Source: Clostridia bacterium (GTDB taxonomy: Bacteria > Bacillota > Peptococcia > DRI-13 > UBA5745). From it: 64,000 nt of DNA. The stretch covers positions 1 to 64,000 of the forward strand of contig JAHDMJ010000004.1 of assembly GCA_018436095.1 (NCBI GenBank), written 5' to 3'. Numbering within the stretch: position 1 is the stretch's first letter; every line of letters begins with the position of its first letter. This document shows, piece by piece, positions 7,855 through 47,929 of the stretch. The notes under the pieces were generated by a model. The model was not told the DNA's origin. It did no database searches and was given only the letters and a program-made list of their open reading frames with translations. The translations under genes and the position numbers were made by a program.

Positions 7855-9288
7855 TTGTGCCAACGCTATGAAAGCCCATTATGCGCCCGCTACGCCAGCA
7901 AAGAAATGCAGGGGATTTTTTCACCTCAAAAGAAATTCAGTACCTGGCGGCGGCTCTGGATCGTTTTAGCGGAAGCCCAGCAAGAGCTGGGACTGCCGAT
8001 TACCGGCGAGCAAATTGAAGAAATGCGGCGGCATCAGGAGGACATCGACTTTGCCAGAGCCGGCTGGTGGGAAAGCCAGGTGCAGCACGACGTGATGGCC
8101 CATATCCATACCTATGGCGAACAATGTCCCAAGGCTCAAGGTATTATTCATTTGGGTGCTACTTCCGCTTATGTTGGGGATAATACGGATATCATCGTCA
8201 TGACGGAAGCCATGGAATTGGTCAGGCATAAGCTGAGAAGGGTAATGAGGGCCCTGGCGGATTTTGCCTGCCGGTATAAAGACCTGCCTACTTTAGGCTA
8301 TACACATTTTCAGTCGGCTCAGCCTACTACCGTAGGCAAAAGGGCCTCCTTGTGGCTGATGGAATTTCTCCTGGATTTGGAGCAGATCGAGTTTTTTCTT
8401 TCCCGGCGGCGGCTGCGGGGAGTAAAGGGTACCACCGGTACCCAAGCCAGCTTCCTGGCCTTGTTTGAAGGGGATCATGATAAAGTAAAGGCTTTGGATC
8501 AGAAGGTGGCGGCTAAACTGGGCTTTGCCGAAAGCTTCCCCGTTACCGGCCAGACCGTCAGCCGCAAGCTGGACAGCCTGGCTTTGAATGTGCTTTCCGG
8601 CATTGCCCAGAGCGCTGCCAAAACAGCGGGAGATATTCGCCTTTTGCAGCACTTAGGGGAGATTGAAGAGCCTTTTGATAAGAAGCAAGTGGGTTCTTCC
8701 GCCATGGCTTATAAACGCAATCCCATGCGCAGTGAGCGGATCTGCTCCCTGGCCCGCTATGTGATTGCCGACGCCCAAAATCCGGCCTTCACCTCGGCCA
8801 GTCAATGGCTGGAGCGGACCCTGGATGATTCTGCCAATAAAAGAATTAGTATACCGGAAGGCTTTTTGGCGGTGGACGGTATTCTGGATCTGCTGGAAAA
8901 GATCATATCCGGGCTGGTGGTTTATCCCAAAGTAATTGAAAAACATTTGGCAGCGGAACTGCCTTTTATGGCCACAGAGCAGATTCTGATGCTGGCAGTT
9001 AAAAAAGGCGGCAGCCGCCAGGAACTCCATGAAAAAATCAGAGTTTATTCTATGGAAGTAGTAAAGGCCATGCGGGAAGAGGGGGAAGAGAACCGGCTTT
9101 TGGCTAAGATTGCCGCCGATCCTGCCTTCCGCCTGACTTTTGAGGAATTACAGGCAATGCTTAAACCGGAGGAGTTTGTGGGCCGGGCGCCCCAGCAGAC
9201 GGCAGAGTTTCTGCGGGACTATATTGAGCCGGAGCTGGCTAAAGGAGGGAAAGAAAAAATTGACCCAGGAGAATCAAGGGAAAACTAG
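7855..9288 (+). CDS. purB: Adenylosuccinate lyase
   Basis: A 477-residue fumarase/aspartase-superfamily lyase that cleaves SAICAR and adenylosuccinate in purine synthesis. The signature loop is [14 protein letters not shown] (residues about 281-294); [32 protein letters not shown] and TGTQASF are the other active-site blocks. The start is TTG at 7855, 8 nt after AGGAGG (7841-7846); the nearby ATG at 7849 is out of frame and soon stops. Its 3' end overlaps the start chosen for potA by 29 nt, so purB and potABC may be co-transcribed. Confidence 0.93.
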
Positions 9289-10339
9289 CCAGGAAATGAT
9301 CCGCCTCGTCGATATCCATAAAGAGTTTGAAGGGGAGACGGTGTTAAACCGGATCAACCTGAGTATTGCCAAAAACGAGTTTGTTACGCTTTTGGGGCCT
9401 TCCGGCTGCGGCAAAACCACCACCCTCCGTATTATCGGCGGTTTTGAGCATCCCACCTCCGGCGATGTAATGTTTGACGGCCAGCGCATCAATGATATTC
9501 CCGCCTACCAGAGAAAGGTCAATACGGTTTTTCAGCGCTACGCCTTGTTCCCTCATTTGAATGTCTACGAAAATATTGCCTTTGGCCTGCATATTGCCAA
9601 AAAAGACAGCAAAGAAATCAAAGCCAAAGTCAAAGCCTCCTTAGACCTGGTGGACATGCCCGGCTTTGAAAAAAGACCCATCCGCTCCCTGTCCGGCGGG
9701 CAGCAGCAGCGGGTGGCTATTGCCCGGGCGGTGGTTAACGAGCCCAAGGTGCTGCTTTTGGACGAGCCTTTGGCGGCTCTGGATCTGAAAATGCGCAAGG
9801 AGATGCAGTTGGAGTTGAAAAACATGCAGAAACAGCTAGGCATCACCTTTGTTTTTGTCACCCATGACCAGGAGGAAGCCTTGACCATGAGCGATACCGT
9901 AGTGGTCATGAAAGGCGGCATCATTCAGCAGATCGGCAGCCCCATCAATATTTATAATGAGCCGGAAAATGTTTTCGTGGCGGATTTTATCGGCGAAAGC
10001 ATTATTTTGGAGGGCCGTTTTCTCGAAGACTGCTTAGTGGAGTTTGCCGGCAGAACCTTTCCCTGCGTGGACAAGGGTTTCATACCCGGTCAACCCGTGG
10101 ACGTGGTCATCCGGCCGGAGGATGTGGATATCTCGGCAGACCCGGCGGCAGCCATGCTTCAGGCTACGGTGACCTCCGTGGTTTTCAAAGGAGTTCATTA
10201 TGAGATGCTGGCGGAGACTGACCAGGGCCAGGAATGGATGATCCACAGCACCACTATGGCCCCGCCGGGGCAGATTATCGGCATGTCCCTTAAGCCGGAT
10301 AATATCCATCTGATGAAAAAGGAGGTGCAGGGGACTTGA
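9260..10339 (+). CDS. potA: Spermidine/putrescine ABC transporter ATPase
   Basis: The ATP-hydrolysing subunit of a polyamine importer. Walker A is [10 protein letters not shown], the Q-loop region [15 protein letters not shown] is typical of PotA, the signature is [14 protein letters not shown] and Walker B is [13 protein letters not shown]-terminal TOBE-type regulatory domain follows from about residue 245. The best start is TTG at 9260 behind AGGAGG (9243-9248), giving 359 residues; the ATG at 9296 is an alternative with poor spacing, and a longer in-frame reading back to 9140 only shadows purB. The gene overlaps potB by 4 nt. Confidence 0.93.
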
Positions 10340-16766: not shown

Positions 16767-18293
16767 TTAGAGCTCCTGGCGTTCCTGGGATTTTTGGGGC
16801 AGGCGGCAATATTTTTGCAGCTTGCGGTTAGCTTTTGTCTGGCTGATCTTTAATAGTTTGGCTATCTTATAAGAGCTGGAATACTTCTCATAGAGCTGAT
16901 TAAAAATCAGGCTTTCATATTGATCCATCAGATCGTCTAAAGCCAGGGCCGAACCGGCAGCCAAAGCCTCCAGGCCCGGCGTCAGCAGAGCCGGTATAGG
17001 ATTGATTTTTGCGTCTCCGCCCGGGAAATCCGGCGCCAAAGCCGTTGATAATGCTTCAGGCCGCCGTGGAAACTCCGGCCGTGCGATCTCCGGCGGAAAA
17101 TCCTCCAGGCTGATCATATCTCTTTCGCTTAAAATAACCAGTTGTTCGATGATGTTGCGGAGTTCCCGGATGTTGCCCGGCCAATGGTAATTCAATAAAT
17201 ATTGATAAGCTTCGTTGGACAGGGTTTTATACAAGCAGTACTTATTATTGAAATAAGTAAAATAATGCTTAATCAGAATCATTAAATCTTCCCGGCGCTC
17301 CCGCAGAGGAGGGATTTCCACTTTTAGAACATTGAGCCTGTAATAAAGGTCTTCCCGAAAAAGGCCTTTTTCGATGAGCTGGGGCAGGTTTTTGTTGGTG
17401 GCGCTGATCACCCGGGCATCAATATGAATGGGTTTTTTGCCGCTGATTTTGTAAATGAACTTTTCGTTGAGGAAATGAAGGATTTTTGCCTGCATAGCCA
17501 GAGGCAGTTCCGCCACTTCATCAAAAAACAGGGTACCTGACTGAGCTCTTTCAATAAGGCCCGTATGGCTGGCTGTAGCGCCGGTAAAAGCCCCTTTCTC
17601 GTAACCGAAGAGCTCCGATTCCAAAAGATTGGAGGGGATGGCTCCGCAATTAATATAAATGAAAGGTTTGTCTTTACGGTCGCTCAAACTGTGAATTAAA
17701 TTGGCGATAATATTCTTGCCGACGCCGGATTCGCCCAGCAGAATAACGGTGGCGTCGTATTGAGCGGTTTTTTCTACCTTTTGCATAACCTTGCGCATAG
17801 CGGAGCTGGCAAAGTTGAAATTCTCAATATCCGGTGAGCCTTGAACAGTTTTTTTGAAGGGATGGCTATCTTCCCAGCTTAATTGGCTGCTGCCGTCGAT
17901 GCCGGGGTATTGGCCGGCTTCGGCACAAAAGCATAGAACATATTGGATCTTGCCGCCGGGGTCTAAGACGGGAGAAGCGGTGACCAGATAATAAATGTCT
18001 TCCGGTCCTTTTTCCAGCAGGGAGACTTTGCGTTTGCTGGATAAGGCTCTGCTGAGGGCGGGATAAAACAAGCCGCCGCCGAGATTGCCGCCGTGATTGC
18101 CGCCGTGATTGCCGTCGTGGCTGCCGTCGTGATTAATGCCGGAGAGGGCCGGGCCGGGTAAAGGGCCTTGGCCGGCGCTGCCGGCAAAAGGGAAAGCCGC
18201 GGGATTCAAGTAGAAAATCCGGCCTTTATGATCGGCAACCAATACGCCGTTTTTTTCTTGTTCATATTGATTCCGTAAAGACTTTAAATCCAT
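16767..18293 (-). CDS. Sigma-54-dependent PAS-AAA+-Fis transcriptional activator
   Basis: A 508-residue enhancer-binding protein. An N-terminal PAS-like sensor (residues 1-130) opens with VADHKGRIFYLNPAA; inside it is a His/Gly/Asn repeat stretch (about 54-73). The AAA+ domain has Walker A GESGVGKN (187-194), the sigma-54 contact loop GAFTGA (234-239), Walker B LFFDE and the arginine-finger region LFREDLYYRLN. A Fis-type helix-turn-helix ends the protein (KIAKLLKISQTKANRKLQKY). ATG behind AAGGGAGG. It is the last gene of the LarA-like/IlvD-like operon, 11 bp after the preceding stop. A -24/-12 promoter lies upstream of that operon, so it probably activates its own operon in response to a ligand sensed by the PAS domain. 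Confidence 0.92.
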   Translation of the reverse strand: MDLKSLRNQYEQEKNGVLVADHKGRIFYLNPAAFPFAGSAGQGPLPGPALSGINHDGSHDGNHGGNHGGNLGGGLFYPALSRALSSKRKVSLLEKGPEDIYYLVTASPVLDPGGKIQYVLCFCAEAGQYPGIDGSSQLSWEDSHPFKKTVQGSPDIENFNFASSAMRKVMQKVEKTAQYDATVILLGESGVGKNIIANLIHSLSDRKDKPFIYINCGAIPSNLLESELFGYEKGAFTGATASHTGLIERAQSGTLFFDEVAELPLAMQAKILHFLNEKFIYKISGKKPIHIDARVISATNKNLPQLIEKGLFREDLYYRLNVLKVEIPPLRERREDLMILIKHYFTYFNNKYCLYKTLSNEAYQYLLNYHWPGNIRELRNIIEQLVILSERDMISLEDFPPEIARPEFPRRPEALSTALAPDFPGGDAKINPIPALLTPGLEALAAGSALALDDLMDQYESLIFNQLYEKYSSSYKIAKLLKISQTKANRKLQKYCRLPQKSQERQEL

Positions 18294-18304
18294 AGCCGCC
18301 TCCC

Positions 18305-19909
18305 TTATCGCAAAAAGGGACGCATAGTAGCCCCCTCGCAGGCAGGACCTACCTGCTGCACGTATCGTTTTAAATAACCTTTACCGCCTTTGGGAATGAA
18401 AGGAGGCAGTGCTTGCAGACGTTTTGCCATCTCTTCCGGGGAGGCCAGCAGGTCGATAGAACGGTTGGGAATATCTACGGCTATAGTATCGCCGTCTTTG
18501 ACGATAGCCAAAGGGCCCTGGTCTGCCGCTTCGGGGCAAATATGGCCGATACAGGCGCAAAAATAAGCGCCGCTAAAGCGTCCGTCGGTAAGCAAAATAG
18601 TGCTGTTGCGCAAGCCTACTCTTGTAATGGCCGAGGTGATACCGTAGACCTCCTGCATGCCGGGCCCGCCTTTTGGTCCCTGGTAGCTGAGAACAATAAT
18701 ATTGCCCCGTTCTATTTTGCCATTATAGATAGCTTCAATAGCTTCTTTTTCTTCGCTGAAAACCCGGGCGGTGCCCTGGTGCTTCCACAGGTGGGGAGCT
18801 ATGTTGAGGGGCCGGGTAACGGCTCCCTGAGGGGCCAGGTTGCCGTAAATGATACGGATGCTGCCGTGGGGATGAACCGGCAGGCTTAAAGGCCGGATAA
18901 CCGTCTCATCATAGACTTCTGCTGTGCTGATGCTGTCGCCCAGGGTTTCGCCGCTTACCGTCATTTCCTGGAGGTGAAGCTGATCTTTGATCCGCTTCAT
19001 CACGGCGGGAATACCGCCGGCCAAATGGAGGTCGTGGAGGGTATAAGGGCCGCTGGGGGTAATGGGGCACAAAAGAGGACATTCGGTACCGGGCACATGA
19101 AAGTCGGCCAGCGTTAAAGGTATAAGGGCTTCCGCAGCAATAGCCAAAAGATGAAGAACGGAGTTTGTGGAAATCCCGATGGTCATACCTACCCGGATAG
19201 CGTTTTCCATAGCTCGAGGCGTTACAATTTTGCGGGGAGAAAGCCCTTGCTTAACCAGGCGGCAGATTTGCTCGCCGGCTTGATAAGAGGATTGCAGTTT
19301 CTTGAAAGAGGAGGCGGAAAAAGTAGACATATAAGGCAGAGCAAGGCCTAAGGCTTCTGCCAGGCAAGCCATGCTGTTTGGCGTATACATGCCGGAGCCG
19401 TCGCCGGCGCCGGTGAGAGCCGCTTCCTCGGTTTCCCTGATGTAATCCTCCATCATTATGCTGGTGCGGTAATCCTCGATTCCCCTTAGCAGATCCATGG
19501 TGCTGAAGCCGCCGGCGCCCCGTTTTTCCGGTTGACTGTAACCGCCGTTGATCATGATGCCGGGCAAGTCAAGGCGCAGCATAGCCATCATGGCGGCAGG
19601 AATGGGCTTGTCGCCGCCGGCTATAAACACCAAGCCATCAAAGTCGTAAGCCCTGGCAGCCATCTCTATGGAGTCGGCAATGAGCTCCCGGCTGGCCAGC
19701 ACATATTTCATGCCTTCATGATTAAAGGTATAGCCATCGCTGACGGCAATGGTCTGAAATTCAAAAGGGACCCCGCCGCCGGCTAAAATACCTTCTTTGA
19801 CGGCCTGGGCTATATCTTTTAAATGACAGTTGGAAAGAGAAATCTCGTTCCAGGTGTTGGCGATACCGATAAAAGGTTTTCTTTTGTCTTTAGCAATAGC
19901 TTTAACCAT
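18305..19909 (-). CDS. IlvD/Edd-family protein lacking Fe-S cysteines, copy 2
   Basis: A 534-residue member of the dihydroxyacid/6-phosphogluconate dehydratase family. The start is the ATG at 19909, with GAGAGG upstream and 13 bp after the preceding stop; longer readings overlap that gene. The fold signatures are intact (SDGYTFNHEGMKYVLASRE, RLDLPGIMINGG, MYTPNSMACLAEALGLAL, GPKGGPGMQEV, TDGRFSGAYFCACIGHICPE). The cysteine of the CDK motif is glycine (GGDKPIP, G99, keeping D100 and K101), and the CxxC before MYTANTM is AGDGSG, so the usual cluster ligands are gone. SLSN replaces the PCN motif of other members, although a Cys follows (SNCHL). Activity as a normal dehydratase is doubtful. Confidence 0.85.
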   Translation of the reverse strand: MVKAIAKDKRKPFIGIANTWNEISLSNCHLKDIAQAVKEGILAGGGVPFEFQTIAVSDGYTFNHEGMKYVLASRELIADSIEMAARAYDFDGLVFIAGGDKPIPAAMMAMLRLDLPGIMINGGYSQPEKRGAGGFSTMDLLRGIEDYRTSIMMEDYIRETEEAALTGAGDGSGMYTPNSMACLAEALGLALPYMSTFSASSFKKLQSSYQAGEQICRLVKQGLSPRKIVTPRAMENAIRVGMTIGISTNSVLHLLAIAAEALIPLTLADFHVPGTECPLLCPITPSGPYTLHDLHLAGGIPAVMKRIKDQLHLQEMTVSGETLGDSISTAEVYDETVIRPLSLPVHPHGSIRIIYGNLAPQGAVTRPLNIAPHLWKHQGTARVFSEEKEAIEAIYNGKIERGNIIVLSYQGPKGGPGMQEVYGITSAITRVGLRNSTILLTDGRFSGAYFCACIGHICPEAADQGPLAIVKDGDTIAVDIPNRSIDLLASPEEMAKRLQALPPFIPKGGKGYLKRYVQQVGPACEGATMRPFLR

Positions 19910-19922
19910 ATCCAATTGCCTC

Positions 19923-21506
19923 TCAAACCAGCACAGCGCCGTTTTCGGCGCCGGACACGTGATCGTAGTAACGCTCCAGATAGCCTCTGGGCAGCGGCGG
20001 CCGCTTAAGCGCTGCCTGCCGGTCTTGCTGTTTCTGCCGGCGGCGGGCCAGTTCCTCATCAGCCGCCAGCAGGGAAAGCTGCTGCCGGGGAAGATCGATC
20101 AAGATATTATCGCCGTCTTCCACCAAGGCCAAAGGCCCTCCCAGAACCGCTTCCGGACTTATGCAGCCGATATAAGGGCTGTTGGTAAAGGCGGCAAACC
20201 TGCCGTCGGAGAGAATAGGCAGCTTGTCAGCCAAGCCTTGGCTATGCAGGGCATAGATAAAGCGGGAGACCGGCGGCATACCGGGGCCGGCAGCGGCGCC
20301 GCCCTTAGGGCCCAAGCAGCGGAGAACCACGATATCACCGGGGCTAATCCGGTTGTCGGCCAGCCCCGCCAGGGCCTCGTCTTCGCTGTCAAAGCATTTG
20401 GCAGCACCTTTATACAAACTGTTGGCAATGGCAGGAGCTTGCTTGACCAATGCGCCGCCGGGACAAAGGTTGCCTTCCATGACCAAAAGGCTTGCCAGAG
20501 GCGAAAAAGCTGTAGCCGGGCTGCGGATTAATTGGCTGTTTAAAATCTCTGCACCATTGATATTTTCTCTGACGGTTTTGCCGGTAACGGTGGCGGCGGA
20601 GGTGATAATCCGCTGATCCAGGCTGAGCATCAGGGCCGGAATGCCGCCGGCGCCGTCAATATTGTCCGGAGGGGCAAAAGAATCAGGCTGGAGAGTGCAC
20701 AGGGTAGGAATGTCCCTTATGCTCCGGAAGTCGCCGAAGGAAAGAGTCAGACCCGCTTCCCGGGCAATAGCGATCAGGTGCATGGCAAAATCCGGCGAGC
20801 CGCCCAAAGCCGCTCCCACAGCCATGGCATTGTGAAAAGAACTTTCGGTGATCATGCCGCTGGGCCGGGCGGAGTTTTTGATCATTTTACAGACTAATTG
20901 GCCGGCGGTCCGGGCTTGCCGCAGCTTTTTGGCGGAAGTGGACAGAACCAGTGCGGAACCGGGCAGGGATAAGCCTAAAGCCTCGGCAATACAAGCCATA
21001 GTGTTTTGGCTATCCAAGCTCTCCAGGGAGTAAGGGCCGCAGTTCAGCAGCAGGGCCGGCAGATCCAGACGGAAAAGGGCCATCAGGCCGGCAGCTACGG
21101 CCGTATCGCCGGTGGCCAGGATAACCATTCCATCCAGGCGGTGGCCTTCAATCATCGTTTCAATGGAGTCGGCAATCAGCTCCCGGTAGCATAAAAGATC
21201 CTGATGGCTGTGCCGGAACTCCGGTATACTGTCGCCATGGCCCCTTTGCTCCGCTTTTTTGCCGTTTTGAAAAGCGCCGATGGTATTGATTTCAAAAGGA
21301 ATGCCGCCGCTGGCTAATATACCGGCTTTGACGGCTTCTAGGATCCTTGCGGTATGGGCAGGGGGATAGAAAGCTTCGTTGCCTTCATTGACTACTGCTA
21401 CAAAAGGCTTTTGAAAATCTTGCTTGGAAAGTCCCAGGGCATTGAGATAAGCCCGCTGGGGAGCCCGGTTTATGTCGATAAGAATGTCGTTGCTGCGAAT
21501 GACCAA
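19923..21506 (-). CDS. IlvD/Edd-family protein lacking Fe-S cysteines and a central segment, copy 1
   Basis: A 527-residue IlvD/Edd homologue more degenerate than its neighbour. CDK has become GDT (G133, D134, T135), losing both the cluster Cys and the metal-associated Lys. The segment that normally holds the second and third cluster cysteines is shortened by roughly 50 residues, going from LLLNCGPYSLESL straight to DSQNTMACIAEALG. The C-terminal half is well kept (LGPKGGAAAGPGMPPV, SDGRFAAFTNSPYIGCISPE). The start is taken as TTG at 21506, 10 nt after AGGAGG; a TTG at 21539 lacks a ribosome site. It lies between the LarA-like gene and IlvD-like copy 2; the pair may form a heteromer. Confidence 0.82.
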   Translation of the reverse strand: MVIRSNDILIDINRAPQRAYLNALGLSKQDFQKPFVAVVNEGNEAFYPPAHTARILEAVKAGILASGGIPFEINTIGAFQNGKKAEQRGHGDSIPEFRHSHQDLLCYRELIADSIETMIEGHRLDGMVILATGDTAVAAGLMALFRLDLPALLLNCGPYSLESLDSQNTMACIAEALGLSLPGSALVLSTSAKKLRQARTAGQLVCKMIKNSARPSGMITESSFHNAMAVGAALGGSPDFAMHLIAIAREAGLTLSFGDFRSIRDIPTLCTLQPDSFAPPDNIDGAGGIPALMLSLDQRIITSAATVTGKTVRENINGAEILNSQLIRSPATAFSPLASLLVMEGNLCPGGALVKQAPAIANSLYKGAAKCFDSEDEALAGLADNRISPGDIVVLRCLGPKGGAAAGPGMPPVSRFIYALHSQGLADKLPILSDGRFAAFTNSPYIGCISPEAVLGGPLALVEDGDNILIDLPRQQLSLLAADEELARRRQKQQDRQAALKRPPLPRGYLERYYDHVSGAENGAVLV

Positions 21507-21551
21507 AGGAATACATCCTCCTTTTATACCTGATGGCAAGGGGCGTAGAGC

Positions 21552-22841
21552 TTATGCCCCATAAAGGTCTGTCAGATTGCCTTGCCTGTCAAAGGGCCAA
21601 GGCTGGGCCTCTCCCTCTATGTCCATTTGAGGGTGCTGACCGGCTTCGGCAGCCAAGGCCCCGGAGATCCGAATATGCTCCAAATTTAAAGTATTGCTGA
21701 TGCGAATGATCCGGGGCTGCCGGCGGTCTGTGCCTACACAGGATTGAACAGCCAGACGGATAAGGTCCGCATCGTTTTCGGCAATGACCGGAATATAGCC
21801 GCCCCTGAAAGAAAGGGCGGTGACGCAGTTGGCATAGACTTTTTCCAGATCCAGCTTGTTAAACAGGCGGCGGGTGATAAAATCGGCCATGCCCACACCT
21901 TCGCCATTGCCGTGAGAGACGGCGGTAAGATCCAGAACTCCCAGGCGCTGGGGGTTTAATCCCGGCATAGGAAAGCCGCTGCCGGCCCGTCCGGTGATGT
22001 TGGGATCCATGCCGAAGCCGCTGTAGTTTTTACCCATAGAATCCACGATCAGCACGTCGGCTTGCTCAATATAGATCCTGGGCATTTGTTTGCGGGCTTC
22101 TTCCTGCAGCAGAGGCTCCCGGCCGGCGATTTCTTCATTGAGAAGAGGCGCCAGCCGCCAGGTTTCATCATAAGGATTTTCGATGATGCCCAGAGCAAAG
22201 AGCAGGGGGGTATTATCCAGAATGACCTGGCCATAGGCAGGAACCAGGCGGGCCAGCTCCTCAAAACCCCAGGCATGACAGGCTTCCGCCCCTGTCTGCT
22301 TACCCAGGCCGATGGTCAGCATTTTCATGAGGCCGCTGCCGTAAGGACCGGCATAAGCCGTATGAGGCTTGATGCGGTTGACGGCGATGATACCGTCGGC
22401 GGCGGCGGCAATCTCGTCCAAATAGACGGCATGACCTTCTGCGGTCCGGCCGATTTCCTTTACGGCCATGGAAGACCGCAGGGGGCAGCCCATAGATTCT
22501 TCCGTAATGCCAAGGGCTGCCAGCATCTCCAATTGGCCCTGGGCCGTAGCTCCCCCATGGCTGCCCATGGCGGGTACAATGAAAGGCACAGTACCCATAC
22601 CGGACAGATAATCCACCAGAGTCCGCATAATCAATGGCATATTGCTGATCCCCCTGCTGCCGGCGGTGAGGGCTATCGTCATGCCGGGCCTTAACCTGGA
22701 GCGGAATTTCTCCTGGTCCAATTGAGCTCTCAGATGGTCCGGAATATCCTGAACTTCCAGTCTTTCCCGGGAAAAATGCTGGCGGCAAAGAAACATGGGA
22801 GGCAGAGCCGTCTTTTTTGTAAGCTCATGGATGATGCTCAT
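21552..22841 (-). CDS. LarA-like (DUF2088) nickel-pincer racemase family protein
   Basis: A 429-residue lactate-racemase-domain protein. The order H95 (GSHGG), H160 (RIKPHT), K173 (GLMKMLTIGLGK), H189 (ACHAWG) matches the catalytic and Ni-pincer residues of LarA, with the same 16-residue gap between the Lys that carries the cofactor and the next His. The pattern IKPHT...GSGLMKMLTIGLGK marks a branch distinct from true lactate racemases, so the substrate is probably another 2-hydroxy or sugar acid. Start ATG at 22841 behind AAGAGG; an upstream extension crosses the promoter region. First gene of the sigma-54 operon. No larB, larC or larE is in the window. Confidence 0.82.
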   Translation of the reverse strand: MSIIHELTKKTALPPMFLCRQHFSRERLEVQDIPDHLRAQLDQEKFRSRLRPGMTIALTAGSRGISNMPLIMRTLVDYLSGMGTVPFIVPAMGSHGGATAQGQLEMLAALGITEESMGCPLRSSMAVKEIGRTAEGHAVYLDEIAAAADGIIAVNRIKPHTAYAGPYGSGLMKMLTIGLGKQTGAEACHAWGFEELARLVPAYGQVILDNTPLLFALGIIENPYDETWRLAPLLNEEIAGREPLLQEEARKQMPRIYIEQADVLIVDSMGKNYSGFGMDPNITGRAGSGFPMPGLNPQRLGVLDLTAVSHGNGEGVGMADFITRRLFNKLDLEKVYANCVTALSFRGGYIPVIAENDADLIRLAVQSCVGTDRRQPRIIRISNTLNLEHIRISGALAAEAGQHPQMDIEGEAQPWPFDRQGNLTDLYGA

Positions 22842-22932
22842 ATAAATAGCCTCTTTTCTACAGTATATCATAGCCGTCTTGGGGAAAATAGGATATTTAC
22901 TGGACATTATAACGGTTAATGATCTTATATAG

Positions 22933-22948
22933 TGCAATTATCATGCCA
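22933..22948 (-). promoter_or_regulatory. Sigma-54 promoter (-24/-12) of the LarA-like operon
   Basis: On the minus strand the sequence reads TGGCATG-ATAA-TTGCA, one mismatch from TGGCACG-N4-TTGCA, with GG and GC correctly spaced, about 92 bp before the LarA-like start codon. The operon it would drive ends with a sigma-54 activator gene. The 394-bp gap up to the chemoreceptor gene holds no gene; TTTTACT-N5-AGTAAAA at 23182-23200 is a small hairpin before the chemoreceptor. Confidence 0.82.
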
Positions 22949-23235
22949 GAAGGGTAAGCCTTGTTTTAACGTGAACTGTATTAGGGAGGCAATGCAATTA
23001 AGCTAAATTAAACTTGGCTTGAGTTAAATATGACTTATATGGGCAAAGCCGCATTTTTATAAAGAACAAAATAGAGGGAAAAGACAAAAGAATACAAAAA
23101 GAGACAAAGAAGGAACCTCGACAGAACAGATTAAGCCATCTAAGATAGAGAAAGCCAGTAAGGCCTTTTGTCCTGGCTTGCTTTTACTGTTTTAGTAAAA
23201 TAGAATAAGTTAATATAAAATAGGGGGAAAATTTA

Positions 23236-28209: not shown

Positions 28210-28803
28210 ATGTTGGAATTACGGATTCATGGCCGGGGCGGCCAAGGGGTGGTGACTTTGGCAGAGCTTTTAGCTAAAGGAGCTTTGAAAGCCGGCAAAG
28301 AAGCCCAAACCCTGCCTTTTTTCGGTGTGGAGCGCCGGGGGGCGGCGGTGAAAGCCTGCGTAAGAATTGCCGAAGAGCCCATCCTTTTGCGGTCCATGTC
28401 TTATCAGCCGGGCTATATTGCGCTGATGCATGGTAATATGCTGCCCTACGCCAAGCTGGAAGGTTTTAGGCAAGGGAAGGAAGCGGCGCCTGTTTTTATT
28501 ATTAACGGCAAGGAGCCGCTGGAGGTGGAGGCCGAACAGTGGTTGGTGGATGGAGAGGGGATCGCTGAGGAGCAGGGCTTGGTCTTTGGCGGCGAAGCCT
28601 ATATCAATGTACCGATGCTGGGGGCCGTAGCCCGGGTGATGGGCCTGCCTTTGGAAGATATAGAAGCTGCCATCAGGGAGCAGTGGCCGGGCCAAAAAGC
28701 CCAGCCCAACCTGGCGGCGGCCCGGAAAGCCTACGGGCAAGTAAAGCGAGTGGAAAACATAAAGAACCCAGGGGAAACGGAGAAAGGGAGGAGCCGGCAA
28801 TGA
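28210..28803 (+). CDS. 2-oxoacid:ferredoxin oxidoreductase, gamma subunit
   Basis: A 197-residue gamma subunit of a four-subunit pyruvate/2-ketoisovalerate-type ferredoxin oxidoreductase. The opening IHGRGGQGVVTLAELLA is the family signature, with FFGVERRGAAVKAC following. It begins 3 bp after the isomerase-like gene, and its stop overlaps the delta start (ATGA). Together the subunits interconvert acyl-CoA plus CO2 plus reduced ferredoxin and a 2-oxoacid. Confidence 0.9.
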   Translation: MLELRIHGRGGQGVVTLAELLAKGALKAGKEAQTLPFFGVERRGAAVKACVRIAEEPILLRSMSYQPGYIALMHGNMLPYAKLEGFRQGKEAAPVFIINGKEPLEVEAEQWLVDGEGIAEEQGLVFGGEAYINVPMLGAVARVMGLPLEDIEAAIREQWPGQKAQPNLAAARKAYGQVKRVENIKNPGETEKGRSRQ

Positions 28804-29063
28804 CGAAAGAAGTTTTACAACCTCTGGCCAGGCCGGTGGCCGGCGCCGGCGGCTCTACCGGTACCTGGCGCAGCCAGCGGCCCCTGCTGAATAAAGATAA
28901 ATGTACGGGTTGCCTGCTATGCTGGATTTATTGTCCGGAAGCGGTAATTACCCGGGAGGACCGGAGCATTGATTACGAATATTGCAAAGGCTGCGGTCTT
29001 TGTGCCAGAGAGTGCCCGGCGGGGGCCATCACCATGATTAGAGAGGAGAGCGGTCATGAGTAG
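28800..29063 (+). CDS. 2-oxoacid:ferredoxin oxidoreductase, delta (ferredoxin) subunit
   Basis: An 87-residue subunit with two [4Fe-4S] motifs, CTGCLLCWIYCP and CKGCGLCARECP, which pass electrons to free ferredoxin. ATG at 28800 overlaps the gamma stop; the downstream alpha gene overlaps by 8 nt. A longer upstream reading in this frame is a shadow of gamma. Confidence 0.92.
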   Translation: MTKEVLQPLARPVAGAGGSTGTWRSQRPLLNKDKCTGCLLCWIYCPEAVITREDRSIDYEYCKGCGLCARECPAGAITMIREESGHE

Positions 29064-30330
29064 ACAAATTGCTACAGGCAATGCGGCCTGCGCTTTGGCG
29101 GTAAAGGCGGCTAATGTGGATTTTATTGCCGCTTATCCCATCACGCCTCAAACTACCATATCGGAAAAACTGGCGGATTACGCCGCCGCCGGAGAATTGA
29201 CAGGCAAATACCTGACGGTGGAGTCGGAGCATAGCGTCATGAGCGCCGTTGCCGCCGCTGCGGCTACCGGCGCCCGCACCTTTACGGCCACTTCCTCCCA
29301 AGGGCTTTTATACATGAACGAAATTCTGCATTATGCTGCCGGCGGCAGGCTGCCGGTGGTAATGGTTAACGTCAACCGGGCGGTCTGTGCCCCCTGGTGC
29401 CTGTATGCGGATCATCAGGATAGCGTATCCCAGAGGGATACGGGCTGGCTGCAGTTTTACTGTGCTTCTCATCAGGAGATTTATGACAGTATCTTTTTGG
29501 CTTATAAAGTGGCGGAGCAAGTGGAAATCCCCGTAATGATCAATTATGACGGCTTCCTGCTGTCCCACTCCATGCTGCCTTTTGAAACCCTGGAGCAGGA
29601 GGTTATCGACAATTATCTGCCGGTCCGGCAGCCGGCCTGGCGCCTGCATCCCCTGTGGGGCGGCACCTTTTCCAATGTGGCCGCCGCCGCCGAATACGCC
29701 GCCTACCGCCATAAGCTGGCCCGGGATACCCGGGAGGCCTTGCCGGTGATCAAGGCTGCCATCAGCGAGTATGAAAAGCTTACGGGCCGGCCCCAGCCGG
29801 GGCTGATTCAGTCCAGCCGCAGGGGCCAGACAGGTACTGAGGGCCAGACAGGCGCTGAAGGCCAGACAGGCGCTGAAGGCCAGGCAGGCGCTGAAGGCCA
29901 GGCAGGCGCTGAAGGCCAGGCAGGCGCTGAAGGCCAGACAGGTACTGAGAGACAGACCGGTGCTGAAGGACAGGCTCAGGTTTACCTGCTGTCCATGGGT
30001 TCCATGGCGGCGGAAATGGAGCTGGCGGCAGAGGAATTAACGAGACAGGGCATCAGTACCGCGGCCTTGAAGCTCAGAGTTTACCGGCCTTTTCCGGCAG
30101 AAGAATTGGCGGCCTTGCTGCCTGACGGCAGTGCCCTGATCGTTTTGGACCGGAACCTGGCCTACGGTCATGAAGGCGGCGTGCTATTAATGGAAGCCCG
30201 CTCCGCTTTATACGGCTGCGCTAAAAACATCAAGATAGCCGGTTCTGCCATAGGCATCGGCGGCCAGGATCTGCCCGTATCCCTGCTTGTTGAAGAAGTA
30301 AGGCGGTTGTTGGAGGTGGCAAAAGCATGA
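29056..30330 (+). CDS. 2-oxoacid:ferredoxin oxidoreductase, alpha subunit with repeat insertion
   Basis: A 424-residue alpha subunit (PorA/VorB type). AAYPITPQTTISEKLADY and TVESEHSVMSAVAAAAATGAR are the domain I signatures. Residues about 256-310 are an unusual hydrophilic insertion made of near-perfect six-residue units (GQAGAE, GQTGAE), placed just before the C-terminal domain that starts AQVYLLSMGSMA. Without it the length would match the family, so the insertion is probably a surface loop that grew by slippage. It lies between delta and beta with overlapping ends, and beta starts at the ATGA of the stop. Confidence 0.9.
   Translation: MSRQIATGNAACALAVKAANVDFIAAYPITPQTTISEKLADYAAAGELTGKYLTVESEHSVMSAVAAAAATGARTFTATSSQGLLYMNEILHYAAGGRLPVVMVNVNRAVCAPWCLYADHQDSVSQRDTGWLQFYCASHQEIYDSIFLAYKVAEQVEIPVMINYDGFLLSHSMLPFETLEQEVIDNYLPVRQPAWRLHPLWGGTFSNVAAAAEYAAYRHKLARDTREALPVIKAAISEYEKLTGRPQPGLIQSSRRGQTGTEGQTGAEGQTGAEGQAGAEGQAGAEGQAGAEGQTGTERQTGAEGQAQVYLLSMGSMAAEMELAAEELTRQGISTAALKLRVYRPFPAEELAALLPDGSALIVLDRNLAYGHEGGVLLMEARSALYGCAKNIKIAGSAIGIGGQDLPVSLLVEEVRRLLEVAKA
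29820..29975 (+). repeat. 18-bp tandem repeat inside the oxidoreductase alpha gene
   Basis: Units of the form GGCCAGGCAGGCGCTGAA repeat about eight times in frame, encoding GQAGAE/GQTGAE. Units differ by single bases (CAGACA or CAGGCA; GGTACT or GGCGCT). The unit length is a multiple of three, so copy-number change keeps the frame. Confidence 0.9.
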
Positions 30331-31268
30331 ACAGTATTTCCGCAAAATTAACGGATCTGCCGGATTATGAGTTGATTCAAAAAGGTACCGGCGCTTGCGC
30401 CGGCTGCCCTTCTCCTATGGGGCTGAGAATCGTTGGCAAAGCCTTGGGCACCAATGCCATCATGGTGATGACGCCTTCCTGCGCGGTAGCCAGCATCGGC
30501 ATGATGCCTAAAAGCTGCTATGATGTGCCCACACTTAACGTCTGCTTTGCCTCCGCCGGCGCTTCCGCCGCCGGCATCAGCGGCGCATTGGACGTCCAGA
30601 TCGCCAAGGGCCTTATCCCCGGCCCCAAGCCGGTGGTTTTCAACTGGGTCGGCGACGGCGGCACTTACGATATCGGTTTTCAGGGCATATCGGCGGCAGC
30701 CGAGCGCAACGACGACTTCATTCATTTCTGTTACAACAACGAAGCCTACTCGAATACCGGCGTTCAGCGCAGCGGCGCCACGCCTCTTCATGCCGCTACC
30801 ACCACCACGCCCTCAGGCAAAAACGAAGGCAAAAAAAACATGCCCCTGCTGATGCTGGATCATGCTCCCGCTTATGTGGCCACAGCTTCTATTGCCTATC
30901 CCCAGGACTTTTACAAAAAAGTAGCGAAAGCCAAAGAAATCAAAGGCTTCCGCTATATTGAGCTTCACGCTCCCTGTGGCCCCGGCTGGAAATTTCCCGC
31001 CAGCGAAACGGTGGAAATCGGCAGGCTGGCGGTGAAGACGGGGGCCTGGGCTTTATGGGAGGCGGAGGAGGGCCGGCTGACCATCAGTAGACCTACCCTG
31101 CAATTGGCCGAAGGCAAGACGAAACCGTCGCCTCTGGCAGATTATCTGAAGGTCCAGGGCCGCTTTGCCGCCTTAATGAAAGGCGCCGGTAAAGAGCAGG
31201 CCATTGCAGCGATGGCCCAATCCATTGAAAAAGAGCTGGCGGAGCTGCTGGCCAGAAGCAAACGCTAG
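30327..31268 (+). CDS. 2-oxoacid:ferredoxin oxidoreductase, beta (TPP-binding) subunit
   Basis: A 313-residue beta subunit. The thiamine diphosphate motif is GDGGTYDIGFQGISAAAERN running into NNEAYSNTGVQ, with Cys residues for a [4Fe-4S] cluster near GACAGCPSPMG and HAPCGPGW. The ATG overlaps the alpha stop. Last gene of the T-box operon, followed by a hairpin at 31348. Sequence alone does not separate pyruvate from branched-chain specificity; the leucine T-box favours a branched-chain 2-oxoacid. Confidence 0.9.
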   Translation: MNSISAKLTDLPDYELIQKGTGACAGCPSPMGLRIVGKALGTNAIMVMTPSCAVASIGMMPKSCYDVPTLNVCFASAGASAAGISGALDVQIAKGLIPGPKPVVFNWVGDGGTYDIGFQGISAAAERNDDFIHFCYNNEAYSNTGVQRSGATPLHAATTTTPSGKNEGKKNMPLLMLDHAPAYVATASIAYPQDFYKKVAKAKEIKGFRYIELHAPCGPGWKFPASETVEIGRLAVKTGAWALWEAEEGRLTISRPTLQLAEGKTKPSPLADYLKVQGRFAALMKGAGKEQAIAAMAQSIEKELAELLARSKR

Positions 31269-40853: not shown

Positions 40854-42068
40854 ATGCGTATAGATATGCCGGCTCACAGCCTGTTTGGCAACGAATCTGT
40901 ACCCTTAGAATTTCCGGACAATTGGGATGTGCAGATCAGCAATTTTAAAGGAGCCGCAGCACCCGCCCTTGCCCAAGAGCAGATTGCTGAAAAGATTAAA
41001 CACCCCGAGCATTTGCTTCCTATAGCCGAAGGAGCAAAAGGCTGCAAGGACGCGGTAATTATTTTTGACGACTTCACCCGGGCTACTCCTATTGAGCCTA
41101 TTGCCAAGGTGGTCATTGCTGAGTTGGAAAAGGCCGGTGTAGACCGTGATAAGATTCGTTTTATCGCTTCCACAGGAGCCCACCGGGCCATGTGTCGGGA
41201 GGATTTTGAACGAAAGCTAGGACGGGAAATCACCCAGGAATTTAGGATTTATTCACATAATCCCTTTTTTAACAATGTATATTTGGGGAAAACAACCTAT
41301 GGTGTTCCTATTGAGCTGAATGCCGAGTGTGTTTATGCCGATTATAAAGTGGCTATCGGCGCCTTTTTTCCTCATTCCTCCACTGGTGTTGGGGGCGGCG
41401 GAAAAATTGTTTTACCGGGCATTGCCTCCTTTGAAACCATCCGCCAATGGCATCTAAAGGACTCAGGTATGTGGAAAACCGACAGTCAAGCCCGGGACAG
41501 CGTGGTTCAAGCTGCTGACTTCCTGAAGCTTGATATGAAAATTGATGTCTTGATGAACGGCAAAGGAGAAATTTCTCAGCTTTACGCAGGACATTATGAT
41601 AAGATTTTCATGGAACACATTGATGAAATTCAGGAGTTTTTCTGCACGAAATATATTGATAATCCGGATATCGTCATTGCTAATAACTACTTTAAACCTA
41701 CAGAGCCCAATGTGGCCATTGTGCAGATGGGAATCGTGGAGTCAGTTAAGCCTGGCGGCGATATTGTTCTGATGTACAATACGCCATATGGATGTGCCTG
41801 CCATTATATGTGGGGAAAATGGGGAGATACAGGTCTTGGGGGTCCTATGTATCGTAAACAATTTAGAGTGCCGCCTACCATTAACCGTTTCTTTGTTCTC
41901 TCAAAATACTGGGATAAAGGGACAGCCTCTTCTTACCATTTTAACGAAGAGGGCAATATCTACATTGAAACCTGGCAGGATCTGATGAGTCATTTAGGAC
42001 CGCAGCCCCGGCGAGTAGCGGTTTACCCATATGCCGATGCATCCTGCTTTGAGCCGGGAAAACGCTAA
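40854..42068 (+). CDS. LarA-family nickel-pincer racemase (DUF2088), full residue set
   Basis: A 404-residue LarA homologue. LarA isomerises lactate with a Ni-pincer nucleotide bound to a lysine. Here DDFTRATP, STGAHRAM (H110), AFFPHSSTGVGGGGK (H174, K184) and PGIASFETIRQWH (H200) fall at almost the same numbers as in Lactiplantibacillus LarA (H108, H174, K184, H200), so the cofactor site looks complete. Substrate is probably a 2-hydroxy acid, not necessarily lactate. RBS GAGGGGAGG. The cofactor genes larB, larC and larE are not in the window. Confidence 0.85.
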   Translation: MRIDMPAHSLFGNESVPLEFPDNWDVQISNFKGAAAPALAQEQIAEKIKHPEHLLPIAEGAKGCKDAVIIFDDFTRATPIEPIAKVVIAELEKAGVDRDKIRFIASTGAHRAMCREDFERKLGREITQEFRIYSHNPFFNNVYLGKTTYGVPIELNAECVYADYKVAIGAFFPHSSTGVGGGGKIVLPGIASFETIRQWHLKDSGMWKTDSQARDSVVQAADFLKLDMKIDVLMNGKGEISQLYAGHYDKIFMEHIDEIQEFFCTKYIDNPDIVIANNYFKPTEPNVAIVQMGIVESVKPGGDIVLMYNTPYGCACHYMWGKWGDTGLGGPMYRKQFRVPPTINRFFVLSKYWDKGTASSYHFNEEGNIYIETWQDLMSHLGPQPRRVAVYPYADASCFEPGKR

Positions 42069-45108: not shown

Positions 45109-45304
45109 TGTACTATCCCGCTGAACATTCGGTTTGCTGCTTGCCTGTTTTCCCGGTTGCGGCGCTGGTTCCTCGCCATAGCTCCGGCTAGGCCTCGTCC
45201 CTCCGCCCTGCATTGGAAAACGTATTCGGCTCGGCGCGGCAATTCCAAATATCGCGGGTCAATGCATTAAAGGATTGAGCCCAAACAAGAAATGGGGGAA
45301 AACC

Positions 45305-46594
45305 ATGGAGAAAATAAAAATTGCGGTGCTGGGCCTGGGCACCTTGGGGCAAGGCATAATCACCATGCTCAATACGCAGAGAGAGCAGTTGGCCAAAAAT
45401 GCCGGCTGTCCGATTGAGCTGGGCCGGGTACTGGAAAAATATTTAACAAAAAAGCGGGGTATCCCTCTGCCTGAGGGTATGTGCACCAACCGCTGGGAAG
45501 ATATCTTGAACGATGATTCCATTCAGATTATTGTGGAAACCATCGGCGGCATTGAGCCGGCCCGCACCTATATTTTGCAGGCTTTGCAAGGGGGCAAAAG
45601 CGTAGTTACCGCCAATAAAGACCTTTTGGCCGCTTATGGCCAGGAGCTTTTCCGGGCGGCCCGGGAGGCAAAGCGGGATCTTTATTTTGAAGCCAGCGTA
45701 GGCGGCGCCATCCCCATCATAGGCCCTCTGCGCCAAAGCCTTATTGCCGACAGGCTTTCCCAGGTCATGGGCATTATTAACGGCACCACCAACTACGTTT
45801 TAACCAAAATGGAAGAGGAAAACAGCAGTTTTGAAAAGGCTCTCCAGGAAGCCCAGGATTCAGGCTTTGCCGAAGCTGATCCCACTGCCGATATAGAGGG
45901 CCACGACGCTGCCCGCAAGGCTGCTATTTTGGCCACCCTGGCCTTTCACAGCCAAGTTAATTTTAACGACGTCTACGCCGAAGGCATCAGCAAAATCACC
46001 AAGGAAGATATGGCCCTGGCCCGCAATCTGGGATACCGGATCAAGCTGCTGGCCATTTGCCGCAATGACGGCGAAGTCATCGAGGCCCGGGTTCACCCCG
46101 CTTTAATTCCGCTGGATCATCCTTTAAGCGGCGTCCGTGATATCTACAATGCTATTTTTGTAAAGGGGCCGGAGCTGGGTGAGACTATGTTTTACGGCGT
46201 GGGTACCGGCCAGCTGCCCAGCGCCAGCGCAGTGCTGGGGGATGTGGTGGCCGTGGCCCGCAATATCCGTTACGACTGTCAGGGCCGGCTAAACATGGTG
46301 GAAAACAGGATCCTGCCCATATTGCCCATAGAAAAAGTCAAAACCCGGTTTTTCCTGCGGCTTTTGCTGAAGGATGAAGCCGGCGCTTTAGCCCAGGTTA
46401 CCGATATTCTCGGCCAATGGGGGGTCAGCATTGCCAGATTGGTCCAGATTGTGCTGGACAGCGGCGATGCGGAACTGGTTTTTGTGACTCATGAGGTGGC
46501 CAACGGCCAAATGCAGCAAGCTGTGGCCAAAATCCGCCAGTTGGCGGTGACCAAAAAAGTTTTGACTTTGCTGCGGGTTGAAGATAGCAATTAA
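45305..46594 (+). CDS. hom: Homoserine dehydrogenase, copy 1
   Basis: A 429-residue enzyme that reduces aspartate semialdehyde to homoserine. The NAD(P) motif is VLGLGTLGQGIITML; VVTANKDLLA holds a catalytic Lys; EADPTADIEGHDAARKAAIL holds the substrate Asp and Lys; the C-terminal ACT domain starts near FFLRLLLKDEAGALAQVTDI. The start is ATG at 45305 with GGGGGAA upstream; a TTG at 45275 has no spaced ribosome site. It is followed at 45 bp by a second copy of nearly the same length. Confidence 0.92.
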   Translation: MEKIKIAVLGLGTLGQGIITMLNTQREQLAKNAGCPIELGRVLEKYLTKKRGIPLPEGMCTNRWEDILNDDSIQIIVETIGGIEPARTYILQALQGGKSVVTANKDLLAAYGQELFRAAREAKRDLYFEASVGGAIPIIGPLRQSLIADRLSQVMGIINGTTNYVLTKMEEENSSFEKALQEAQDSGFAEADPTADIEGHDAARKAAILATLAFHSQVNFNDVYAEGISKITKEDMALARNLGYRIKLLAICRNDGEVIEARVHPALIPLDHPLSGVRDIYNAIFVKGPELGETMFYGVGTGQLPSASAVLGDVVAVARNIRYDCQGRLNMVENRILPILPIEKVKTRFFLRLLLKDEAGALAQVTDILGQWGVSIARLVQIVLDSGDAELVFVTHEVANGQMQQAVAKIRQLAVTKKVLTLLRVEDSN

Positions 46595-46639
46595 ATCTTA
46601 ATAAAGATTATGAGGAATAAAGCGTAAGGAGAGAATAAA

Positions 46640-47929
46640 ATGGAAACAGTTAATGTAGCGGTTTTGGGGATGGGAACCGTAGGCCAAGGGGTAGCCATCA
46701 TGCTGATCAAACAGCAGGAATTTTGGAAAAAACAACTGGGCTGCCAACTGGTATTAAAGCGCATCTTAGAGAAATACCAGGATAAGCAATTGGATTTTGA
46801 CCGGGGGGCAATCGATATATCCGGCAATTGGCAGGACATAGTGGAGGATCCGGAAATCCACATTGTTATCGAAACGATGGGCGGTATTGAACCGGCCAAA
46901 ACCTTTATCAGCGAAGCCTTAAAAAGCGGCAAGCATGTGGTTACCGCCAATAAAGACTTATTGGCCCTGCACGGCCAGGAGCTTTTTGCTATTGCCAAAG
47001 AAAAAGGTGTTGACCTTTATTTTGAAGCCAGTGTAGGCGGGGCTATACCTATTCTCAGCGCTTTAAGGCAGAACCTGACGGCTGATCCGCCGAAAGAGGT
47101 TATGGGTATCGTCAACGGCACCACCAATTATATTTTGACCAGAATGGCCAAAGAAGGCGGAGATTTTGCCGCTATCTTAGCCGATGCCCAAAAACTGGGC
47201 TATGCTGAAGCTAATCCCGCTTCCGACGTGGAAGGCATCGATTCCGGGCGGAAGGCTGCTGTTTTATCCACCCTGGCTTTTCACAGCCAAGTGACCTTAG
47301 ACGACGTCTATATTCAGGGTATCACCGAAATCACCAGGGAAGACATAACCTTTGCCGATCAGATGGGCTACGCCATCAAGCTTTTGGCCCTATGCAAAGA
47401 GGTGGAGGGCAAAATCGAAGCCAGGGTTCATCCTACCCTGCTGCCGAAGAGCCATCCCCTGGCTTCCGTTCAGGATACCTTTAACGCCATTTTTGTGAAA
47501 GGCGATAATCTGGGAGAGGTTATGCTTTATGGCCGGGGAGCGGGCCGTTTTCCCACAGCCAGCGCTATCTTGGGTGACGTGACGGAAATCGTCAGGAATA
47601 TGCGTTTCGGCTGCTCCGGCAGGCTTAATGAAGTCTGCCAGCGGGAAAAAGCTATCCTGCCCATCGAAGAAGTAAAAACCCGGTTTTTCCTGCGGTTGTT
47701 GCTGGCGGATAAGCCCGGCGTATTGGCTTTAATCACTAAAGCCCTGAGCAAATATCAGGTCAGCCTGGATACAGTCAATCAGATCGATTTAAAAGGCGGC
47801 GACGCCGAGCTGGTTTTCGTTACCCACGTGGTAAGAGAAGGGGATATGCAAAAAGCCCTGGAGGAAATTCGCAGCCTGGATGTGACGAAAGAAATCATTA
47901 CCATATTACGGGTGGAAGGTGTAGCTTAA
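46640..47929 (+). CDS. hom: Homoserine dehydrogenase, copy 2
   Basis: A 429-residue tandem paralogue of the preceding enzyme with the same domains (VLGMGTVGQGVAIML; VVTANKDLLALHGQ; EANPASDVEGIDSGRKAAVL; C-terminal ACT domain). The catalytic residues are kept in both, while the NAD-binding regions and ACT domains differ, so they may differ in cofactor use or feedback control. RBS AAGGAGAG. It ends 3 bp before thrB. Confidence 0.92.
   Translation: METVNVAVLGMGTVGQGVAIMLIKQQEFWKKQLGCQLVLKRILEKYQDKQLDFDRGAIDISGNWQDIVEDPEIHIVIETMGGIEPAKTFISEALKSGKHVVTANKDLLALHGQELFAIAKEKGVDLYFEASVGGAIPILSALRQNLTADPPKEVMGIVNGTTNYILTRMAKEGGDFAAILADAQKLGYAEANPASDVEGIDSGRKAAVLSTLAFHSQVTLDDVYIQGITEITREDITFADQMGYAIKLLALCKEVEGKIEARVHPTLLPKSHPLASVQDTFNAIFVKGDNLGEVMLYGRGAGRFPTASAILGDVTEIVRNMRFGCSGRLNEVCQREKAILPIEEVKTRFFLRLLLADKPGVLALITKALSKYQVSLDTVNQIDLKGGDAELVFVTHVVREGDMQKALEEIRSLDVTKEIITILRVEGVA

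Follow-up and report, generated by a model that had tools for sequence, protein, structure and literature searches.

A putative sigma-54-controlled operon encoding a LarA-like protein and two IlvD/Edd-like proteins with complementary losses and no iron-sulfur cluster ligands

In a 64,000-nucleotide stretch of a Clostridia bacterium genome (positions 1 to 64,000 of contig JAHDMJ010000004.1, assembly GCA_018436095.1; hereafter the window), four tightly spaced genes on the minus strand encode, in order, a LarA-like protein, two IlvD/Edd-like proteins (IlvD1 and IlvD2), and a sigma-54-dependent activator (Table 1). Every characterised IlvD/Edd member uses an iron-sulfur (Fe-S) cluster, yet both copies in this operon lack the cluster ligands; each has also lost a different part of the active site, and the two probably work only as a mixed pair. 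The gene order and spacing given in the initial annotation held when start codons were re-set by ribosome-binding sites and orthologues, and mechanical open reading frame starts at 22937, 21539, and 20059 were rejected as too long. A 45-nt gap separates the LarA-like gene from IlvD1, which starts with TTG behind AAAGGAGG; the ATG of IlvD2 (at 19909) lies 13 nt past the IlvD1 stop, and 11 nt separate IlvD2 from the activator gene. All four genes are intact in a second species of the genus (metagenome-assembled genome SM1-B15.1, hereafter G004; the window's genome is G000), which was used for comparison, so the quartet that the initial annotation had proposed to look for elsewhere does occur there.

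The operon's promoter reads TGGCATG-N4-TTGCA, one mismatch from the consensus TGGCACG-N4-TTGCA as first annotated, and it is conserved 5′ of the first gene in G004. The activator matches Sigma54_activat (220.7 bits) and PAS (27.5 bits) in Pfam; it is classed as a sigma-54 enhancer-binding protein on its AAA+ domain with GAFTGA, the RpoN encoded in the window's genome, and the -24/-12 promoter, and a C-terminal match to the helix-turn-helix family HTH_50 scored 22.5 bits, under the cut-off of 27. It may sense a ligand, as previously proposed, and has a PAS-fold match only. A His/Gly/Asn-rich insert in this protein (residues 55–70; window 18084–18131, minus strand) was considered as a possible Ni site and rejected, as it is missing from the G004 orthologue. 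Upstream of the promoter, a T-rich block of ∼27 nt (window 23083–23109, minus-strand reading) is near-identical in both species and is a candidate activator-binding site.

Both IlvD-like proteins match the Pfam domains ILVD_EDD_N and ILV_EDD_C. Their AlphaFold2 models (mean predicted local distance difference test scores of 85.7 for IlvD1 and 87.9 for IlvD2) superimpose on the dihydroxyacid dehydratase (DHAD) of Synechocystis (6NTE) with Z values of 46.6 and 51.7, respectively, and predict that the IlvD/Edd fold is kept across both domains. With the DHAD of M. tuberculosis as reference, however, the three cluster cysteine positions are occupied by Pro, Gly, and a deletion in IlvD1 and by Ser, Gly, and Gly in IlvD2. 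The CDK motif has become GDT in IlvD1 and GDK in IlvD2; the third site reads GDGSG in IlvD2 and falls within a 44-residue deletion in IlvD1. The cysteines of CPxCGSC, found in the common DHAD type (which has Gly at the first position), are gone as well. By contrast, of the 75 full-length sequences used for comparison, 73 keep the CDK and third-site cysteines, and the other two are cluster-free proteins of G004 itself; a published comparison of the family reported full conservation of all the Mg2+ ligands, the catalytic Ser, and one of the cluster cysteines (PMC5770437). The alignment thus upholds the loss of Fe-S ligands, with GDT and GDK at CDK, that the initial annotation had reported; its estimate of about 50 missing residues in the first copy was close, and the site it called "CxxC" is indeed absent from both, though that is not the usual name. 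It had also asked whether cluster cysteines might be supplied from other positions, but the remaining cysteines form no plausible cluster set. Because the cluster cysteines are missing, we do not class the pair as Fe-S-dependent dehydratases, and their superfamily membership is by descent. No account of an IlvD/Edd protein without a cluster came up in the papers searched.

The loss of ligands is not a matter of chance, because both IlvD-like genes are intact in the second species under strong purifying selection. Ratios of nonsynonymous to synonymous substitution (dN/dS) against G004 were 0.117 for LarA, 0.147 for IlvD1, 0.073 for IlvD2 (93% identical between the species), and 0.101 for the activator. 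Within IlvD1 the constraint is uneven: residues 1–56 carry one replacement and 18 synonymous-only codons, while the remaining 471 residues carry 94 replacements (Fisher p = 1.7e-4), making the N-terminal segment with its helix the most constrained part of the protein. The region corresponding to the dimer-interface helix of relatives (RELIADSIE region) has no replacements in 20 residues, whereas the former Mg loop has 15 in 25. IlvD1 thus conserves what a cap-lending partner needs, while what a catalyst needs has drifted.

The two copies are not equivalent. In both species the Mg2+ ligands (D, D, K, and E) and the Ser of DGRFSG are intact in IlvD2, but this copy lacks the N-terminal recognition helix; its start lies just past the helix segment, the model likewise has no such helix, and the few residues ahead of the conserved core differ between the species. 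IlvD1 shows the reverse: the Lys is replaced by Thr, the Mg2+-binding Glu by Pro, and the catalytic Ser by Ala (Ala in both species), and its deletion takes out the active-site flap, while the recognition segment RSNDI...NRAPQRAYLNALGL is kept and N-terminal helices are present in the model. In solved IlvD/Edd structures this helix extends into the active site of the partner subunit, activity needs dimerisation, and the Mg2+ ligands and Ser are shared across the family (PMC5770437, PMC9314677, PMC11316719). Since the helix caps the partner's site in those dimers, an IlvD1-IlvD2 heterodimer would contain a single complete site without a cluster: the helix missing from IlvD2 would have covered nothing but the dead site, and the one retained in IlvD1 would cover the live site. 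An IlvD2 homodimer, in contrast, would have two uncapped sites, and this is our main argument for the heterodimer. The heteromeric enzyme of the initial annotation therefore gains support from the complementary losses and the in-trans helix, but IlvD1 is very probably a pseudoenzyme rather than a second catalytic subunit.

Each genome also encodes a third, stand-alone cluster-free IlvD (on contig C22 in the window's genome and C51 in G004), which has the recognition helix together with the Mg site and Ser, and Pro, Gly, and Gly at the three cysteine sites; it shares none of the cysteines that IlvD1 and IlvD2 have at other positions, and it too lacks the CPxCGSC cysteines. A -24/-12 site conserved in G004 precedes it. 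In the window's genome it overlaps an unassigned LarA homologue that differs from the quartet's LarA and is faced by a sigma-54 activator gene; DctM-like transporters lie near this locus. The six cluster-free proteins form one monophyletic clade (99/97), with the stand-alone form on its shortest branch. Among 398 genomes of the phylum, the clade was found in these two only (about 1081–1105 bits, versus 641 for the next). A scan of 84,980 species with the peptide patterns PFEF[NQ]TIA and SDGYT[EF][AN]H, which can miss proteins without those peptides, gave no further cluster-free IlvD; among the best 80 loci, which were checked, the cluster-free ones were G004's own two.

The LarA-like protein scored 499 bits against NF052515 (NCBIfam group 22; cut-off 400) and 33.4 bits against Lar_N (cut-off 23.3), with Pfam covering the N-terminal domain alone. 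Its catalytic His/His/Lys/His (H95, H160, K173, and H189), noted in the initial annotation, is invariant in eight of eight group-22 homologues. The host probably makes the nickel-pincer nucleotide (NPN) cofactor, as its genome encodes LarC (220 bits). Lar_N, the catalytic quartet of residues, and LarC in the genome are shared with the Ni-pincer racemases and epimerases of the LarA superfamily (GntE, Mar2, and LarA), from which the operon's protein differs in belonging to group 22 and in its N-terminal-only Pfam match. No characterised group-22 LarA was found, and group 22 is not named in the main text of the LarA literature consulted. An orthologue (88% identical) occurs in G004 only, other relatives having LarA paralogues of at most 48% identity to the quartet's LarA; the orthologue group was thus found only alongside the IlvD pair, and the decay or absence of the pair beside a retained LarA, which would have spoken against the initial annotation, was not seen. 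A second LarA-like protein in the window (40854–42068, plus strand) is under every NCBIfam equivalog cut-off.

Gene neighborhoods point to a role in sugar-acid metabolism. Two genera from a different family of the class have a group-22 LarA gene between those of a cluster-containing IlvD (CDK kept) and a galactonate dehydratase, which suggests that group 22 acts as a galactonate or talonate 2-epimerase. Because group 22 stands there beside an ordinary IlvD, the LarA/IlvD pairing itself is not new, although it is overall a minority arrangement for group 22. In G004 the operon begins with a gene of the MR/MLE type (enolase superfamily; L090:7134–8270, minus strand), and it is these triples together with this gene that point to sugar acids. 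Loss of the MR/MLE gene from the window's genome was rejected, as an orthologue (83% identical) lies away from the operon on contig C19 (498–1634, L227), beside a DctM-type transporter; a search for a second operon copy at the end of that contig found none. Near the operon is a gene set for a 2-oxoacid:ferredoxin oxidoreductase (window 28210–31268, plus strand), and it is a guess that it might consume a 2-oxo product of the operon.

Table 1. Coordinates of the operon's features and of the related loci discussed in the text (window positions unless a contig or locus is named).
Feature	Position	Strand	Evidence or remark
Sigma-54 (-24/-12) promoter TGGCATGATAATTGCA	22933..22948	-	Counterpart TGGCATGGTAATTGCA 5′ of the operon's first gene in G004; RpoN in genome
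LarA-like protein, NPN isomerase group 22, 429 aa	21552..22841	-	NF052515, Lar_N; H95/H160/K173/H189
IlvD1, probable IlvD/Edd-like pseudoenzyme, 527 aa	19923..21506	-	N-terminal recognition helix and dimer helix kept
IlvD2, cluster-free IlvD/Edd-like protein, 534 aa	18305..19909	-	Mg2+ ligands, Lys, and Ser kept; without recognition helix
Sigma-54-dependent activator, PAS fold and AAA+ with GAFTGA	16767..18293	-	Sigma54_activat and PAS matches
Stand-alone cluster-free IlvD and overlapping LarA homologue	G000 contig C22, L091:7095-8777 and 8774-10072		4-nt overlap
IlvD / LarA group 22 / galactonate dehydratase triples	L105:8909-13088 and L106:2-4154		Adjacent genes

Elsewhere in the window, a tandem pair of homoserine dehydrogenases is followed by a homoserine kinase (45275–47929, plus strand), and a trimethylamine methyltransferase-like protein (50863–52314, minus strand) scored 270 bits against a cut-off of 525. 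Protein P0004 had no solved-structure match by sequence.

We give an even chance to a pathway for sugar acids or 2-hydroxyacids in which a Ni-pincer C2 epimerase is coupled to a cluster-free IlvD1-IlvD2 heterodimer. In such a scheme, the group-22 LarA would epimerise the acid at C2, and the heterodimer would then act on one epimer. IlvD2 would provide the live site, with Mg2+ held by Asp58, Asp100, Lys101 (probably carbamylated), and Glu420 and with Ser446 as the base; IlvD1, as the dead paralogue, would use its N-terminal helix to cap that site in trans, leaving one live and one dead site per dimer and no Fe-S cluster. In the ensuing beta-elimination the 3-OH would leave with the aid of a protein acid, for which Asp170 is the candidate, and of a Mg2+-stabilised enediolate, much as in the acid-sugar dehydratases of the enolase superfamily, and sigma-54 would switch expression together with the activator, whose gene closes the operon. 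Asp170 is part of the loop that once held the third cysteine, and all four cluster-free proteins that have a Mg site share it. With the Mg2+ site and Ser kept and the cluster lost, the most economical reading is that an enolate forms on Mg2+ and a protein acid assists, and the enzyme is, on these sequences, most likely a sugar-acid lyase that depends on Mg2+ and converges on the chemistry of the enolase superfamily. We advance more tentatively, at somewhat below an even chance, the wider claim that a branch of IlvD/Edd without Fe-S dehydrates sugar acids by Mg2+ and protein groups through an obligate heterodimer of a capless catalyst and a dead cap-lender.

Several observations weigh against this scheme. 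In the published IlvD/Edd mechanism, the cluster is the Lewis acid for the 3-OH and Ser is the base (PMC5770437); because that role is the accepted basis of dehydration, losing the cluster may mean a different reaction. Asp170 adjoins the former cysteine position but does not occupy it, the place of IlvD1 within the clade is uncertain owing to its long branch (1.83), and only two species carry the system. A serious rival, though one we think unlikely, is a Mg2+ enzyme that is no dehydratase, in which the enediolate formed by Ser is re-protonated (as in a racemase, epimerase, or tautomerase) or a leaving group better than hydroxide is expelled, so that Lewis-acid iron would not be required. In its favour, the Mg2+ ligands and Ser are kept and the loss is confined to the part that activates the 3-OH, and the separate MR/MLE-type protein of the G004 operon could do the dehydrating; but the operon already has a likely C2 epimerase in LarA, and dehydration is what the triples of ordinary IlvD, LarA, and galactonate dehydratase suggest.

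Less probable again is a non-catalytic pair that binds the hydroxyacid and regulates LarA or the activator, or that serves as an assembly partner. The catalytic residues of IlvD1 are clearly lost and a regulator gene shares the operon, but a pure binder would be unlikely to keep every Mg2+ ligand and Ser at the low dN/dS of IlvD2, and these residues are also retained in the stand-alone paralogue. We are more doubtful still that a metal centre persists on ligands from elsewhere (Cys28, Cys451, and Asp170 of IlvD2, or residues of IlvD1). Cys28 stands two positions away from where the first cluster cysteine would be, Cys451 is near the Ser loop, and both are kept in G004; however, their conservation says little because the G004 IlvD2 is so nearly identical, and the stand-alone paralogue is without Cys28 and has no cysteine at the three sites. 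Finally, the many motif losses in IlvD1 could suggest that both genes are decaying relics, which is very improbable and was rejected on the dN/dS values, the genes being intact in two species with operon and promoter conserved.

The proposed heterodimer, then, would share with the known IlvD/EDD dehydratases (DHAD and the L-arabinonate, D-xylonate, and 6-phosphogluconate dehydratases; 6NTE, 6OVT, 5J84, and 5OYN) the full-length fold, the Mg2+ ligands, Lys, and Ser (in IlvD2), the recognition helix (in IlvD1), and the dimer helix, but it would differ from them in having cluster cysteines in neither subunit, in consisting of two non-equivalent paralogues rather than a homo-oligomer, and in a catalytic copy without its own helix. 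Galactonate dehydratase and the other acid-sugar dehydratases of the enolase (mandelate racemase) superfamily resemble it in the proposed mechanism alone (a Mg2+-stabilised enolate and a protein acid, with no Fe-S); the folds are unrelated, although a member of that fold is encoded in the G004 operon. Trypanosome AdoMetDC with its prozyme offers a parallel for a dead paralogue proposed to complete its sister, in a different fold and with a different mechanism, the complex being shown for AdoMetDC and inferred for IlvD1-IlvD2. A clade under selection without cluster ligands affords a direct test of the role of the cluster and of whether Mg2+ and a base suffice, and the complementary losses are a clear example of how a homodimer with two shared sites may become a heterodimer in which one site is live and the other dead. 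If these proteins are indeed sugar-acid dehydratases without a cluster, such enzymes would help synthetic pathways that depend on poorly loaded Fe-S enzymes.

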